Shown: positions 12,674 to 18,754 of the stretch, one piece after another
Numbering within the stretch: the stretch's first letter is position 1
How the letters are laid out: each line of letters opens with the position of its first letter
DNA from: Nitrospiraceae bacterium
Lineage (GTDB): Bacteria; Nitrospirota; Thermodesulfovibrionia; UBA6902
Length of the DNA stretch: 34,598 nt
Direction of reading: 5' to 3'
NCBI GenBank assembly: GCA_003599425.1
Contig: QZKC01000069.1
Span: 1 to 34,598 of the forward strand
The notes under the pieces: generated by a model
Seen by the model: only the letters and a program-made list of their open reading frames with translations
What the model was told of the DNA's origin: nothing
Database searches by the model: none
Translations under genes and position numbers: made by a program

Positions 12674-14557
12674 ATGCTTTCAAACTTCACTGTCAGTCCC
12701 AAATACAATAAAGTAATCCTTCTTGGAATGGATGGGCTGGATCCTAAGATAACCAGCCACTTGATGCAATCAGAGGACCTCCCGAATTTTGCCAAACTAA
12801 GACAGATGGGCGGTTTCATGCCTTTAGCAACCAGTAACCCTGCACAGAGTCCTGTTGCGTGGGCCTCTATTGCTACCGGAAATAATCCGGGGTATCACGG
12901 CATTTTTGATTTTTTAAATCGCCGGGTAGCTGATTATATGCCGGAATTGGCGATAGTAAAGATGAATCCCAAGAATGTTTTTGGAAAAAGAGAGGCGATG
13001 TTTTTACCGGTTATGCACGGTAATGCTTTTTGGGACTATGCTTCCAGTATTAATATTTCCTCAACAATTTTGAAATGGCCTATGACCTTTCAGCCAAAGC
13101 AGACGCAGACAAAACTCTACGCCGGGCTTGGTGTTCCGGATATCAGGGGAGGGCTTGGCAAGTATGCATTCTACACGTCCAGAGACATCCCTAAGAATGC
13201 AGAAGGATCTGAAAAAGCAATAAAAGTTCAGATAAATAATGGGGCCATCAAGACGCATGTATTTGGTCCAAATGTTGCCAAACTTATGTCAAGAGAGTTT
13301 GCCAGGGCTGAAATGATCATAAGAACTTTTCCTGAAAACGGAACTATCGAAATAGATATAGATGGGATGAAATATAAAGTGTATAGGAACAAGTGGAGTG
13401 AATGGATAGAGGTAAAATTCAAGCTGGGAATGATGAAAACAACAACGGGGATCGTCAAGTTTTATTTGAATCAGATCAGCCCGGAATTTGAGTTATATAT
13501 GACACCTGTGCAAATAAATCCCAATGACCCTGCATTTGTTATTTCAAGTCCGGATGATTATATAAAAGAACTTGCTGACAAACTGGGATGTTTTTATACC
13601 CTGGGTATGCCTGAAGATACCAAGGCTCTCGAAGAAGGGAGAACAGACGAGGAAGCATTCATTGCTATGTGCGATGAAATTATGGATGAGCAGGAAAAAA
13701 TGCTCTGGCATGAGTTCAACAGATTTAAGGAAGGGTTGCTGGCAGCAGCATTTTTCTCAACTGACAGGATACAGCACATCTTCTGGGTGACAAAGGACCC
13801 TGCGCATCCCCTTTATGATAAAGCATATGCCCAGAAATACGGCCATGTCATTGATGATTATTACCGTACAATGGACAGGATCCTCGGGGAAATGCTGAAA
13901 CAGATAGATGATAAGACTGCTCTCATGGTCTTTTCAGATCATGGATTTACTACCTTCAGGCGTGCTGTCCATATTAATTCCTGGCTGGCGCAAAATGGTT
14001 TTATGAAGTTGACCCGGCAGGTTTCGCAGGATGACAAGGAAGGGGGCGGGCTCTTTCAGTATGTGGACTGGAAAAATACTAAAGCATATGCACTTGGTTT
14101 TGGCAGTATCTACTTGAATGTCAAAGGCAGAGAGAGGGAAGGCATTGTTGAGCAAGGAGCAGAAGCTGAGTCTCTGGCAGATCAGATTACCGAGAAACTG
14201 AAAGGAGCGAAAGATCCTAAGAATGGGCAATCTGCTGTAAAGGATGTCTATAAAAAAGACAGGATATATTCCGGTGAGCAGGCTCATAGTGCTCCTGATC
14301 TCGTCGTTGGATTTCAGGATGGATACAGGGCATCATGGCAGACTGCTGTCGGCGGCTCCCCGGCTATATTATTCGAAGATAATTTAAAGAAATGGACTGG
14401 TGATCATATTGTCGACCCTTCAATTGTCCCCGGGATTTTCCTGAGTAATTTCAAGATTAACACAGAGAATCCCTCGCTCATGGATATTGCACCTACTGTT
14501 ATATCATGCCTTGGGGTATCATCAAATAATATGGAGGGGAAATCACTGATCTCATAA
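12674..14557 (+). CDS. Alkaline phosphatase superfamily phosphodiesterase/nucleotide pyrophosphatase-like enzyme
   Basis: 627 residues. Core motifs of the type I phosphodiesterase/PglZ-like branch: ILLGMDGLDP with metal ligand D20, the nucleophile region NPAQSPVAWASIATG (S59 or a nearby hydroxyl residue), PGYHGIFDF at 72-80, then STDRIQHIFW and MVFSDHGF, which supply the remaining metal-binding Asp/His residues, and HSAPDLVVGF near the C-terminus. There is no signal peptide, so a cytosolic location is predicted. Enzymes of this group cleave phosphate esters or phosphodiesters; the substrate here is unknown, and a role in handling lipid-linked glycan intermediates is only inferred from position. 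The start has no Shine-Dalgarno and lies directly after a -10 box. Confidence 0.85.
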   Translation: MLSNFTVSPKYNKVILLGMDGLDPKITSHLMQSEDLPNFAKLRQMGGFMPLATSNPAQSPVAWASIATGNNPGYHGIFDFLNRRVADYMPELAIVKMNPKNVFGKREAMFLPVMHGNAFWDYASSINISSTILKWPMTFQPKQTQTKLYAGLGVPDIRGGLGKYAFYTSRDIPKNAEGSEKAIKVQINNGAIKTHVFGPNVAKLMSREFARAEMIIRTFPENGTIEIDIDGMKYKVYRNKWSEWIEVKFKLGMMKTTTGIVKFYLNQISPEFELYMTPVQINPNDPAFVISSPDDYIKELADKLGCFYTLGMPEDTKALEEGRTDEEAFIAMCDEIMDEQEKMLWHEFNRFKEGLLAAAFFSTDRIQHIFWVTKDPAHPLYDKAYAQKYGHVIDDYYRTMDRILGEMLKQIDDKTALMVFSDHGFTTFRRAVHINSWLAQNGFMKLTRQVSQDDKEGGGLFQYVDWKNTKAYALGFGSIYLNVKGREREGIVEQGAEAESLADQITEKLKGAKDPKNGQSAVKDVYKKDRIYSGEQAHSAPDLVVGFQDGYRASWQTAVGGSPAILFEDNLKKWTGDHIVDPSIVPGIFLSNFKINTENPSLMDIAPTVISCLGVSSNNMEGKSLIS

Positions 14558-14595
14558 AAAAAGAGTTCCATGAAAATAAACTGGAACTCTTTTTT
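14557..14595. terminator. Bidirectional terminator between convergent genes
   Basis: A 14-bp perfect stem (AAAAAAGAGTTCCA at 14557-14570 and its complement at 14582-14595) with an 11-base loop. T-runs are present on both strands. It overlaps the last base of the phosphatase stop codon and lies 33 bases beyond the stop of the convergent cysteine-rich gene, so it can serve both. Confidence 0.9.
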
Positions 14596-14628: not shown

Positions 14629-14871
14629 TTATTGATACACAGACCCTGATGGCTGTTTCGGATTTCTGGAACCGGTGCCTCTAACCGCTTTCCCGTTTTT
14701 CCGGTCCCCATTTCCGTTATGTTCCTTATAGATTTCACATAGTTCAAAATTGAAGCTGCAAAGGGTTATCGCCCTTTCGATATCCTGGCTATCCAGTTTT
14801 ACACAATAACAATTTTCAAACGGTTCAGTAAGAAAAGGACAAAGTTTTCTATTCTTTGATGAATTGATCAT
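14629..14871 (-). CDS. Small cysteine-rich protein, probable target of the adjacent sigma-54 system
   Basis: 80 residues, not assigned to a named family. Five cysteines lie in the first 45 residues (C11, C21, C23, C38, C45), giving C-x9-C-x-C-x14-C-x6-C, in a compact region ending FELCEIY. The tail from about residue 50 is hydrophilic and glycine/lysine-rich. No signal peptide or membrane helix is seen. The spacing could bind zinc or an iron-sulfur cluster, or form a redox thiol site; this is inference. Support for a real gene is strong: AAGGAG at 14877-14882 sits six bases before the ATG, a -24/-12 promoter lies just upstream, and a terminator follows the stop. It lies downstream of, and on the same strand as, a sigma-54 activator gene. 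Confidence 0.8.
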   Translation of the reverse strand: MINSSKNRKLCPFLTEPFENCYCVKLDSQDIERAITLCSFNFELCEIYKEHNGNGDRKNGKAVRGTGSRNPKQPSGSVYQ

Positions 14872-14896
14872 TATATCTCCTTATGGAGAGGTAGGA

Positions 14897-14912
14897 CGCA
14901 ATATATATGCCA
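14897..14912 (-). promoter_or_regulatory. Sigma-54 (-24/-12) promoter of the cysteine-rich gene
   Basis: Read on the minus strand the sequence is TGGCATATATATTGCG. It matches the RpoN consensus TGGCAC-N5-TTGC at all invariant GG and GC positions with correct spacing; only the C of GGCAC is changed. The predicted start is near 14886, leaving a leader of about 15 bases that holds just the AAGGAG ribosome-binding site. The neighbouring gene encodes a sigma-54 activator. Confidence 0.82.
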
Positions 14913-14999: not shown

Positions 15000-15032
15000 T
15001 TGTGCACATGAGCGCTATGTCACAATCATGTG
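15000..15032 (-). promoter_or_regulatory. Candidate upstream activator sites for the sigma-54 promoter
   Basis: Two inverted repeats interleave here: TTGTG (15000-15004) with CACAA (15021-15025), and CACATGA (15005-15011) with TCATGTG (15026-15032). They lie about 114-146 bases upstream of the predicted sigma-54 start, which is the usual distance for NtrC-type enhancer sites, and end at the stop codon of the regulator gene. Binding by the adjacent regulator is inferred. Confidence 0.45.
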
Positions 15033-16751
15033 TCATGTCCCATTTGCATCGGTTGTTTGGACCAAATTAAATTCTTTGATCTTGCGGTAAATGGAGCGCC
15101 TGCTGATTCCCAGCAGTTGAGCAGCCCTTGATTTATTCCAGGCGGCTTTGTCGAGTGCCTGAAGGATGATCTGGGGATCATCTACATCTCCATTAGTATT
15201 ATTTTGAGGGATGGCCGCATCTGCAAAAGATTTCAGCTCAAATGGCAGATGTTCAGTGGTGATCGTATGCTGTTTACAGAGGATGAATGCATGTTCCAGT
15301 GCATGTTCCAGTTCCCTTATATTGCCTGGCCAGTGATATTCCATGAATATTTTTTCTGCATCTTCAGAAATTGCCCTGATCCCCTTTCTGAATTTATTGT
15401 TGAATTTCTTAATAAAGTGGTCCGCTAAAAGCGGAATGTCTTCACGCCTTTCCCTCAGAGGCGGCAGGTTAACTTTCATGACATTCAATCTGTAATAGAG
15501 GTCTTCGCGGAATTCACCCGTTCTCACCTTTTTGGAAAGATCCTGATTAGTTGCAGTAATGACCCGGACATCTACTTTGACCGTTGTTGAATCACCAACC
15601 CTTTCAAACTCCTTTTCCTGAAGCACCCTCAGTAGTTCTATCTGGATCCTGGGGGATATATCAGCTATCTCGTCTAAAAAAATAGTCCCTCCGTCAGCTA
15701 ACTGGAAGCGTCCGATCTTATCCCTGATCGCACCTGTGAAAGACCCTCTGACATGTCCGAACAGTTCACTTTCGAGGAGATTTTCTGACAATGCAGAGCA
15801 GTTAACTTTTACGATCTGATGCTGGTTGCGGTTGCCCTTGTAATGAAGCGCTTCTGCTACAAGTTCCTTTCCTGTTCCGCTTTCACCGGTGATGAGCACA
15901 GTAGTTTCCACGTCTGACAGGAGATCAATCAGGGAATAAAGCTCCTGCATTTTTTTGCTGTTCCCTATAATATTATGAAATTTCTGCCGATCATTCAATT
16001 CTCTTTCAAGGTCTGTTAATCGTGTTTCATCCTTAACGACCATTATTGCCCCTGAGAATTCTCCATGACGGTTCAGGAGAGGAGATGTGGTCAGTGACAC
16101 AACCTGTTCAAGGCCGTTTTTCATTTGACAGTCGAGGCCCTGTATTTCAACTGATTTTTTTGTGCTGATGGTACTGGTAAGCGCTTCAAGACATTTCCCG
16201 CTGCATCTGGTTTGCAGGAGGCTGAATTTTTCTCCGACCGATTCACGGGCCACGCCACAGATGCCGTGCGTTGCCTGATTGATCTCGAGTAAAAATAAAT
16301 CTTTGTCCACAGTGATAATAGCATCCTTGACGCTGCTGAAAATGGCTTCAAGGTTTGAGCGGTATTTCTCTTTCTCATCAATGACCGCTTTATGCTGCAA
16401 AGCAACATCAATAGCATGGAAGAGCGTATCTTTCTGAATAGGCTTCGGTAAATAATCAAAGGCCCCGAGACGAATTGCCTCTGATGCAGTCTCAATGTTC
16501 GGGTATCCTGTTATCATGATCACCGGACAGTTCAATTTCTTGTTCTTTATCTCGCGCAATATATCAATTCCGGTCTTCCCTCGCAAAATAATATCTGCAA
16601 AAATAACGTCAAAATCAGATGTGGCAATACAATCCATGGCTTCATCAAAATCTTTTGCAGCGCTCACTTCAAAGTCTTTTGCAGAAAGAAATTTATTGAA
16701 AGTGAATCTTATTCCTTCTTCATCATCTATTATTAAGATCTTTGCCTTCAT
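15033..16751 (-). CDS. NtrC-family sigma-54-dependent response regulator (REC-PAS-AAA+-Fis)
   Basis: 572 residues. Receiver domain 1-120 with acidic pair D9-D10, phospho-acceptor D53, T81 and K103. A PAS domain at about 130-245 contains four cysteines (C165, C183, C187, C208). The AAA+ domain at about 260-490 has Walker A GESGTGKE (289-296), the sigma-54 contact loop as GSFTGA (336-341, Ser in place of the usual Ala), Walker B GTIFLDE (355-361) and an arginine-finger region RLNVMKVNLPPLRER. A Fis-type helix-turn-helix lies at about 534-562 (NKSRAAQLLGISRRSIYRKI). It should activate RpoN promoters after phosphorylation by the kinase encoded immediately upstream, which overlaps it by ATGA. The PAS insertion between REC and AAA+ suggests a second, cytosolic input. 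Confidence 0.95.
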   Translation of the reverse strand: MKAKILIIDDEEGIRFTFNKFLSAKDFEVSAAKDFDEAMDCIATSDFDVIFADIILRGKTGIDILREIKNKKLNCPVIMITGYPNIETASEAIRLGAFDYLPKPIQKDTLFHAIDVALQHKAVIDEKEKYRSNLEAIFSSVKDAIITVDKDLFLLEINQATHGICGVARESVGEKFSLLQTRCSGKCLEALTSTISTKKSVEIQGLDCQMKNGLEQVVSLTTSPLLNRHGEFSGAIMVVKDETRLTDLERELNDRQKFHNIIGNSKKMQELYSLIDLLSDVETTVLITGESGTGKELVAEALHYKGNRNQHQIVKVNCSALSENLLESELFGHVRGSFTGAIRDKIGRFQLADGGTIFLDEIADISPRIQIELLRVLQEKEFERVGDSTTVKVDVRVITATNQDLSKKVRTGEFREDLYYRLNVMKVNLPPLRERREDIPLLADHFIKKFNNKFRKGIRAISEDAEKIFMEYHWPGNIRELEHALEHAFILCKQHTITTEHLPFELKSFADAAIPQNNTNGDVDDPQIILQALDKAAWNKSRAAQLLGISRRSIYRKIKEFNLVQTTDANGT

Positions 16752-18754
16752 TCCTCATCCTTAATGTCAGTAGTGGGTAGATCTATCATTATTTTGGTGT
16801 ATTCTCCTTCTATGCTGTTGATTATCAGTTTTCCTTCATGTTCGTTTATGATCCCATGGCTGATGCTTAGACCTAAGCCTGTTCCGATCCGGTTAGGCTT
16901 GGTGGAGAAAAAGGGATTGATCACTTTGTCAATAATGTTGGAGGGTATGCCGTTGCCTCTGTCATGAAATACAATCCGAACATAGGGGGCCGAAGCGGTC
17001 ATTATCTTTTCACACGATATCTCAAGTATTTTGTTTTCGTGGGTCCCCGGGTATTTCTGGTTAAGGGCATAACGGGAGTTGCTTATGATATTTAAAAAGA
17101 CCTGCTGAATCTGCTGAGCGTGTACGGGCACCTTAATAGCTTTAGCAGGGATATGTACTTTCAGGTGTATCCCGTCTTTCCTTATTTGAGCTGAGGTGAG
17201 GGAAAGTGTGTCAGCAAAAATATCATGCAGGTACACATAGCTTTTTTCCTCTTTTCTGATCCGAGCAAAGGATAAAAGGCTTCGGACAATGGTAGCGATC
17301 CTGTCGCCGTCCCTGACAATTCTCATGGGAATGTCAATCTCTTCGTTTTCAGGCTCGAGCTCATCAATCATTATTTGCGCATAGTTAATGATATTGTTTA
17401 TGGGGTTATTGATCTCATGAGCCACACCTGCAGCCAATTCACCAAGAGATGCAAGATGTCTTGAACGCATCGCCCCGGCCTGTAAATTTGTTTTTTCTGT
17501 TATATCACGGGCCAATTCAATGACATTTTTTACCTTTCCTGAGTCATCTTTGATCGGGAAGGACCTGATATCCCAGATTTTACCGCCAGCGGTTATTATT
17601 TCAGCAGTCTCTTCAAGGCCGGATATGAAGCTCTTCAGGGTAGGGCAGTTCTCGCAGGGAGAAAACACATTGCAGCAAAGACTGTAGCAATATTGCCCGG
17701 AAAGCTCAGACTCGTTGCTATTAAATGCGGAAGCCGCAGCCTTGTTGGCCCACATTATTTTCAGATCAGGAGAAAGCAGGAGGAGGTTGTCAGGAATACA
17801 GTTAAGAAGAGTATGAAATTCCTTAGAGAGGTTGCGGTATTTACTCTCACTTTTTCTGAGCAATTCAACGGCAATTTTACGCTCTCCGATTTTTTCTCTC
17901 AGTTGTTCATTGGTCATCTTCAATTCTGAGGTACGTTCTTCGACACGCATTTCAAGTTCTTCTTTGGCTTTTTTGATATCTTCTTCCGTCTTTTTACGTT
18001 CTGTTATATCTCTTGCTATATGGATGAGGCCAATGAGCTGATTGTCCCTGTCAAACCGGGGCATTGCCCGAATTTCAATATACATGTTCAGATGAGGTTC
18101 AAAGATCTCAAAATCCGCAGGAACACCTGTCTTGAGGCAATCGCAACTGGGACAGCCTTCAGGAGCGCATTTTGTTCCATGATAGAATTTGAAACATTTA
18201 GTAATGTTTTCTGAGTATGAAGAAGGCAGATTCAATATTTTTTGAGCAGCTTTATTTGCGTAAACTATATTGAACTCCTTGTCATGGATAGTGATTATGT
18301 CTGTTATTGCATGAAAAGTATTTTCCCAGTCATGTTTTGCCTGGAAAAGCATTTCTTCCATTTTCTTACGTTTGGTTATTAAATATAACGAAAATTGAAT
18401 CGCGGGTTTTCTGTTATAAGTAAATCGAATTGCCATCAATTCCACATCAATAGTTGTTCCATTGATAGAGATAAGTTTTGTTTCGAGGGGAAGGAAAGGC
18501 TCTTCTTCAATCAAAAGGCTCTGAAACTGTTTTTTTACTGTATCATGGTGGGTAGAGGAAAGAAAGCTTATCAGGGATTTCCCAAGCAGTTGGTTGATAT
18601 TTACTGCGCCAAATAAATTTATTCCGGTCTTATTCAGGAAGATGATCTCGCCATCGAGTTGTATCCCCGCTGCAATAGGGGATAATTCTATAAGCTGTTT
18701 GAATTGAGCATCTTTAATGGGCGATGGGTTTAACGTTTCAGGTTTGCAGGGCAT
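16748..18754 (-). CDS. Cytosolic multi-PAS sensor histidine kinase
   Basis: 668 residues with no membrane helix, so a soluble kinase. Three PAS domains lie at about 14-130, 140-255 and 310-420. The second and third carry dense cysteines (C187, C196, C201, C204, C206; and C356, C360, C361, C367, C370) in arrangements such as CFKFYHG followed by CPSCDC, and CENCP. A coiled-coil stretch (about 252-310) joins them. The dimerisation/phosphotransfer domain has H446 in GELAAGVAHEINNPINN. The ATPase domain has N-box NIISN (555-559), G1 DRGNGIP, F-box FFSTK and G2 GTGLGL. The likely partner is the overlapping NtrC-type regulator. The signal is unknown; redox, metal or gas sensing through the cysteine-rich PAS domains is inference. 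Confidence 0.95.
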   Translation of the reverse strand: MPCKPETLNPSPIKDAQFKQLIELSPIAAGIQLDGEIIFLNKTGINLFGAVNINQLLGKSLISFLSSTHHDTVKKQFQSLLIEEEPFLPLETKLISINGTTIDVELMAIRFTYNRKPAIQFSLYLITKRKKMEEMLFQAKHDWENTFHAITDIITIHDKEFNIVYANKAAQKILNLPSSYSENITKCFKFYHGTKCAPEGCPSCDCLKTGVPADFEIFEPHLNMYIEIRAMPRFDRDNQLIGLIHIARDITERKKTEEDIKKAKEELEMRVEERTSELKMTNEQLREKIGERKIAVELLRKSESKYRNLSKEFHTLLNCIPDNLLLLSPDLKIMWANKAAASAFNSNESELSGQYCYSLCCNVFSPCENCPTLKSFISGLEETAEIITAGGKIWDIRSFPIKDDSGKVKNVIELARDITEKTNLQAGAMRSRHLASLGELAAGVAHEINNPINNIINYAQIMIDELEPENEEIDIPMRIVRDGDRIATIVRSLLSFARIRKEEKSYVYLHDIFADTLSLTSAQIRKDGIHLKVHIPAKAIKVPVHAQQIQQVFLNIISNSRYALNQKYPGTHENKILEISCEKIMTASAPYVRIVFHDRGNGIPSNIIDKVINPFFSTKPNRIGTGLGLSISHGIINEHEGKLIINSIEGEYTKIMIDLPTTDIKDEE

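Follow-up and report, generated by a model that had tools for sequence, protein, structure and literature searches.

A cysteine-bearing mini-protein as a probable output of sigma-54 two-component circuits in Nitrospirota and Geobacteraceae

In the window, that is, the whole stretch of 34,598 nucleotides analysed, a gene for a small cysteine-rich protein lies beside the genes of a sigma-54 two-component system, which raises the question of what this circuit controls and what the small protein does in it. An earlier note had regarded the set as a self-contained sensory circuit whose output is an undescribed small thiol protein. The reading favoured here, with a probability of about 0.6, is that a sigma-54 two-component circuit would control proteins of the cell exterior and have the mini-protein as its most constant output, as judged from comparison of sequences.

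The small gene and its regulator pair

The open reading frame at 14629..14871 (minus strand), recognized from the ORF list and a homolog profile, encodes 80 amino acids with cysteines at positions 11, 21, 23, 38 and 45 (C-x9-C-x-C-x14-C-x6-C), and no signal peptide was evident on inspection by eye. A putative sigma-54 -24/-12 promoter, TGGCATATATATTGCG, was located ahead of it at 14897..14912 (minus strand) by reading the sequence and comparing orthologs; one exact copy was found in the 2.9 Mb genome and none of the reversed pattern. Transcription of the gene is expected to start near 14886, and a short leader read from the sequence (14872..14886, minus strand) carries an AAGGAG ribosome site. 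Promoter, leader and cysteine-bearing frame had all been described in the earlier note and were borne out. The source genome, an assembly of 2.9 Mb in 106 contigs that is 89.6% complete, encodes rpoN.

An inverted repeat on the 3' side of the stop codon (14595-14557), between the small gene and a convergent phosphodiesterase-like gene, folded at -17.3 kcal/mol (z -4.1). As an A run flanks this hairpin on one side and a T run on the other, it could terminate transcription in both directions, and the bidirectional intrinsic terminator proposed before is possible at 14557..14595 (strand-neutral) from sequence and folding. It was absent from a consensus terminator scan because its loop has 11 nt and the scan maximum was 8. 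No exported gene was found after the small gene in the window.

Upstream of the small gene and in the same direction stand first a histidine kinase gene (16748..18754, minus strand) and then the gene for an NtrC-type sigma-54 activator (15033..16751, minus strand), and domain matches confirmed both members of this adjoining pair. The kinase has several PAS domains, two of them Cys-rich, and no transmembrane segment was evident by eye. The regulator combines receiver, PAS, AAA+ and Fis domains; its receiver, AAA+ sigma-54 domain and Fis-type HTH gave Pfam matches above cut-off, and what we take to be its GAFTGA loop reads GSFTGA.

Distribution, linkage and cysteine core of the family

The family was present in 38 of 61 genomes (the source genome and 60 relatives) with 1-6 matches each, three of them in the source genome, and all 9 other genomes of the window genus carried it. 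Searches with a profile of 78 members gave 49 positive genomes among 395 sampled across the phylum, and 36 among 76 from the family to which a Geobacteraceae MAG belongs. The 28 named loci with a family protein were mostly from Nitrospirae, Nitrospiraceae or Thermodesulfovibrionia MAGs, together with one Nitrospinota and two Geobacteraceae/Geobacter entries.

The 81 copies were divided into window-like loci (type A, n=32, 29 of them being the window copy and the 28 that follow it in similarity rank), copies beside a paralogous kinase/NtrC pair (type B, n=21), the rest (type C, n=25) and fusions (n=3). A further 40 phylum-wide loci, obtained from 41 places after the weakest (G297:C107) was left out, were treated apart. 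All comparisons were sequence-based, and related genomes are non-independent samples.

The linkage to a two-component pair pointed out in the earlier note was conserved. The NtrC gene was found ahead of the small gene in 24 of 32 type A loci, and an NtrC gene within 1.8 kb and of at least 48% identity was ahead of it in 25 of 40 phylum-wide loci; linkage in type B was not counted as evidence, since that class is partly defined by the linked NtrC. Of the 65 Geobacteraceae matches, 27 were examined as loci, mostly with flanks of 1.5 kb; in 16 of these the gene stood behind that of a sigma-54 regulator other than this NtrC (27-52% identity). Presence of the family and of an NtrC ortholog agreed in 60 of 61 genomes, with G044 as the sole exception, at E <=0.001 for the family and E <=1e-200, a threshold of our own choice, for the NtrC ortholog. 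Three genomes (G003, G006 and G007) had their best NtrC match on another contig, and the upstream palindrome described below and the promoter were still found at the small gene.

Cysteine conservation over 149 domain sequences was 147 for C11, 148 for C21, 134 for C23, 148 for C38 and 147 for C45. With C11, C21, C38 and C45 near-invariant and C23 dispensable, the core is a four-cysteine site with a frequent fifth; the five-cysteine pattern proposed earlier is thus conserved in the family, except that C23 does not belong to the core. Cysteine spacing was rigid, and the conserved residues other than cysteine included P17, Y22, S28 and Y48. These four near-invariant cysteines probably form a metal or redox site. 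Many type A proteins carry, in addition, a C-terminal cysteine after an Asn/Gly-rich tail (for example L027, L030, L032-L035, L037, L040 and L041), which is absent from the window protein.

The claim that the protein is undescribed held in the libraries searched, as no family name was obtained from Pfam, NCBIfam, PHROGs or PDB. The window protein had no significant match in the first three, and the family profile retrieved from PDB only two antibody chains (E 0.77 and 1.4), neither credible. Pfam matches among the 78 members were weak and scattered, with at most 3 members per Pfam family, which ruled out a known domain; a phage origin was rejected, as phage records and PHROGs gave no match. 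The predicted structure of the full protein was poor (pLDDT 53) and says nothing on the metal site. A selenoprotein was considered for four phylum-wide matches (L146-L149) with one apparent internal TGA, read as X, and was rejected for these four, in which TGA is a stop after the domain (G291, G297:C53, G176 and G182); G297:C107 and Geobacteraceae rows with stops lie outside that set. The small protein was not found as a subject in the literature titles and abstract openings, and a term search of the available main texts of PMC2725144 and PMC4641369 gave neither cysteine nor PEP-CTERM.

Cysteines were also kept in the putative sensors. Four cysteines in the PAS domain of the NtrC-type regulator (C165, C183, C187 and C208) were retained in 23/23 type A and 21/21 type B regulators and in 19-22 of 21-22 phylum-wide ones. 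Two Cys-rich PAS segments of the kinase (residues 187-206 and 356-370) were kept among type A kinases and partially conserved outside type A; these segments are possible Fe-S or metal sensors. Conserved cysteines in the sensors together with a four-cysteine output protein suggest that the circuit senses redox state or a metal.

A second small cysteine motif, CPxL...C...YVPS..EL..YC...CP.Y, was found between -1.2 and +1.5 kb of 9 of 21 type B, 12 of 40 phylum-wide and 0 of 32 type A genes; type C had it at one locus (L065), two more pattern matches being ferredoxin-like. This second four-cysteine family was seen in tandem with the first in L135-L138, L143-L144, L146-L148, L150, L155 and L159 and in type B loci such as L078, L081 and L087. 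In L148 its motif forms one protein with a receiver domain, and by cluster L159 looks similar; neither the Cys part of L148 nor the L078 copy had a Pfam match. A STAS-like gene followed 12 of 21 type B copies (one was checked against Pfam), and a sigma-70-like gene stood further downstream in some type B loci. After the type B Cys genes, for example in L087 and L067, STAS-like genes, genes of ~98 aa and RpoD-like sigma-70 genes were seen to recur.

Promoter and upstream palindrome across copies

When sequences with GG at -24, GC at -12 and fixed spacing were sought, as in a sigma-54 promoter, type A orthologs had them: a strict site within 200 bp was present in 32 of 32 type A loci, including L053, L056 and L061, which had been added to the class because of this site, compared to 5 of the 334 genes in a background set made up of twenty 20-kb stretches of three single-contig relatives. 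The sigma-54 promoter of the earlier note is strongly upheld by this difference. Strict sites elsewhere numbered 3/25 in type C, 0/21 in type B, 1/40 phylum-wide and 2/3 in fusions. Under a relaxed pattern the counts were 15/25 for type C, 8/21 for type B (whose scan was confined to 200 bp), 27/40 phylum-wide and 3/3 for fusions, compared to 14/334 in the background. Outside type A the -12 box was more often TTGA or TTGT, and part of type C retained the upstream palindrome alongside such a variant -12 box. With the promoter and the cysteine pattern both conserved in orthologous loci, the idea of a small cysteine-bearing protein under its own sigma-54 promoter survived the comparison. Control of the mini-protein gene by the adjacent pair through sigma-54 is very likely on these grounds.

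The pattern TGGCAYN5TTGCW had 12 matches in the source genome (L102-L113) compared to 1 for the reversed pattern. Several of these sites were seen by eye ahead of flagellar-like, cytochrome-like and PEP-CTERM-like genes. L109 and L113 are followed, at 65 and 39 bp from the first base of the site, by Cys-bearing frames of 61-62 aa, and the family Cys pattern was not seen in them by eye.

A likely activator site, TGACACATGATTGTGACA (15018..15035, minus strand), was recognized as a recurring palindrome from comparative counts; it lies 105 bp ahead of the -24 box, and the NtrC gene ends within it. Downstream of the palindrome another recurring element that resembles a half-site, CATGTGCA (15003..15010, minus strand), was noticed by eye. 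The source genome contained two exact copies of TGNCACAN4TGTGNCA, one before the window gene and one before its paralog at C1:73733. Exact palindromes were present in 20/32 type A loci and 0/334 background genes, and with at most two mismatches in 29/32 and 5/334, respectively. The palindrome together with a relaxed promoter was found in 11/25 type C and 20/40 phylum-wide loci and in 0/334 background genes. In 36 type A and C loci the distance from palindrome to -24 box fell into classes about one helical turn apart (84-87, 93-96, 104-108 and 115-121 bp), with an outlier of 45 bp at one locus with masked bases.

Across the 61 genomes 44 exact palindromes were counted, compared to 3 for the reversed pattern, and by position 26 of the 44 lay within ~230 bp upstream of a family match. 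Among the other 18, six stood ahead of a gene with a PEP-CTERM-like tail, and only two of these genes (L258 and L259) had a -24/-12 match in between; the remaining palindromes were, by eye, ahead of lipoprotein-like, glycosyltransferase-like or unrelated genes. Some of these 18 may be chance occurrences.

A different element was found in type B. GACATGTC occurred in 17 of 21 type B intergenic regions, mostly twice (background 0.02 per kb), compared to 4 of 24 in type A and 0 of 22 phylum-wide; the type A palindrome was present in 16 of 24, 0 of 21 and 4 of 22 intergenic regions of types A and B and the phylum-wide set, respectively. Among the regulators whose sequence was displayed, the recognition helix read SRRS in 4/4 of type A, NVRT or TVRT in 8/8 of type B and DRKT in 3/4 of the phylum-wide set. 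As both the site and the recognition helix differ in type B, these data fit an activator and a predicted site that diverged in step next to one and the same small gene.

Exported partners and the role of the mini-protein

In the three fusions (L073, L080 and L083) the Cys domain forms the N-terminus and is followed by a signal-peptide-like stretch, and the C-terminal tail contains PEP together with a hydrophobic stretch and basic residues. Six type C loci, L055, L059, L064, L066, L079 and L054, encode this exported family in a separate gene directly downstream, L054 being the paralog copy in the source genome. A pattern test placed a PEP-CTERM-like gene within 600 bp downstream in 6/32 type A and 11/25 type C loci, together 17/57 (15/50 among loci with at least 1.3 kb downstream), whereas 400 kb of background held 2 ORFs of this kind. 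No such neighbour was present in 21 type B or 40 phylum-wide loci, and a general tie to exported genes was ruled out for these copies. A TIGR02595 scan of 23 proteins (the neighbours and one fusion, L075 being left out) gave four at or above the cut-off of 16 bits (L050, L079, L258 and L265), 17 at 9.3-15.9 bits and two without a match (L066 and L070). The three fusions had no match at E <=0.01 in the curated model search.

Exosortase (PF09721) was found in 36 of 61 genomes, 28 of 38 with the family and 8 of 23 without it, and was not found in the source genome, an assembly that is 89.6% complete. The tie between exosortase and the family is loose on these counts, and an obligate one was ruled out. 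PEP-CTERM-like tails without a PF09721 match were seen in G022 (L079) and the source genome (L054); in these two, another sorting enzyme may exist, or the match may have been missed.

These observations bear on the self-contained circuit of the earlier note. It is probably not self-contained, as the palindrome also precedes the paralog and, in relatives, some exported PEP-CTERM-like genes. Naming the small protein as the output overlooked exported targets, which a minority of copies precede or are fused to. The circuit probably has more outputs than the small protein and would in relatives reach exported PEP-CTERM-like proteins; a regulon of surface proteins is quite likely on the comparative evidence.

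Known systems of this kind were compared. PrsK/PrsR likewise comprises a kinase and a sigma-54 response regulator, with an upstream motif and a -24/-12 site ahead of PEP-CTERM genes. The available part of Haft et al. 2006 (PMC1569441) describes a motif 1 that ends in TTTACA, at a mean of 62.8 nt before motif 2, with the motifs reported in Proteobacteria only. In contrast, the window motif is TGNCACAN4TGTGNCA, with 84-121 bp in most cases between it and the -24 box, and it has neither the TTTACA end nor the 62.8 nt spacing, so it was rejected as a PrsR binding motif. PrsR identity was also rejected: the window regulator has a PAS domain and scored 364 bits against a TIGR02915 cut-off of 502.6. 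PrsK was absent among the best 25 of 74 models matching the window kinase. The regulator resembles PrdR (NF041552) in a near full-length alignment of its residues 1-562, and PrdR identity was rejected at 360 bits against a cut-off of 795. DVUA0057 of Desulfovibrio vulgaris is a response regulator predicted to control PEP-CTERM genes, with five predicted PEP-CTERM targets enriched by DAP-chip (PMC3333781); unlike the window circuit, the accessible part of that paper mentions no small Cys protein. PepA, likewise a PEP-CTERM protein under sigma-54 control, is encoded by the RpoN-dependent gene pepA, and the abstract of its report does not mention a Cys mini-protein, in which it differs from the window circuit (PMC9850573). 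We read the window circuit as a sigma-54 surface-protein circuit that is PrsK/PrsR-like yet distinct.

The mechanism we propose would run as follows. The kinase and the NtrC-type activator would act on TGNCACAN4TGTGNCA, a site that mostly lies 84-121 bp ahead of a -24/-12 promoter; this promoter would drive the mini-protein gene and, in relatives, some exported PEP-CTERM-like genes too. The mini-protein would be cytoplasmic and would bind Zn or an Fe-S cluster through C11, C21, C38 and C45. Tentatively, it could be an adaptor or switch between the Cys-bearing sensor circuit and the making or export of a surface partner. Its domain would then occur in three forms, as a free protein, in tandem with the second Cys family and as an N-terminal segment that exported proteins can shed. 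In the widest form of the proposal, which we offer with reserve, the cytoplasmic four-Cys mini-domain, of a kind not described before, could be a metal- or redox-gated coupler of sigma-54 circuits to surface building in at least Nitrospirota and Geobacteraceae, with activator and site having co-diverged.

Somewhat doubtful, on the same evidence, is a feedback regulator that binds the Cys-rich PAS domains of kinase or activator and shuts off or tunes the circuit, the surface genes being merely co-regulated. The most constant association of the family is indeed with the kinase/NtrC pair and not with exported genes, the type B and phylum-wide modules sit among STAS, receiver and sigma-70-like genes, and the related-looking four-Cys motif is joined to a receiver domain in L148 and, by cluster, L159. 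However, the three fusions join the family domain itself to an exported protein and not to a regulator, and the paralog in the source genome has no NtrC or kinase match within 7 kb and lies upstream of an exported gene.

The fusions could also point to an escort or quality-control factor for a co-encoded exported protein, the fused form being a cytoplasmic N-terminal extension released at signal-peptide cleavage; the position of the Cys domain ahead of the signal-peptide-like stretch and the separate downstream gene at the six type C loci agree with this. Such a role is unlikely, since an exported neighbour was found at just 17 of the 57 loci of types A and C and the type B and phylum-wide loci have none. 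It is improbable that the protein is a simple thiol or metal buffer without a partner, induced by redox or metal stress: five cysteines per 80 residues and sensors with Cys-rich PAS domains would suit a buffer, but the rigid Cys spacing, the conserved P17, Y22, S28 and Y48 and the fusions speak for a folded module with an interaction role. A chance frame with a chance promoter-like site, which the short gene and the missing family match might suggest, is refuted by the conservation of protein, promoter, palindrome and linkage and has a negligible probability.

Control of proteins of the cell exterior by the sigma-54 circuit, with the mini-protein as its most constant output, is the reading we retain as the more probable. 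The analysis also brings to light a family of small proteins, without a name in the libraries searched, whose genes repeatedly neighbour those of sigma-54 regulators; spanning Nitrospirota and Geobacteraceae, it offers an entry point to a new signalling component of bacteria that are mostly uncultured. For Nitrospirota the locus provides a concrete candidate with a regulator, a predicted binding site and predicted targets. The genes for exported proteins beside family copies hint at a switch, not described so far, by which uncultured bacteria may build their cell exterior.
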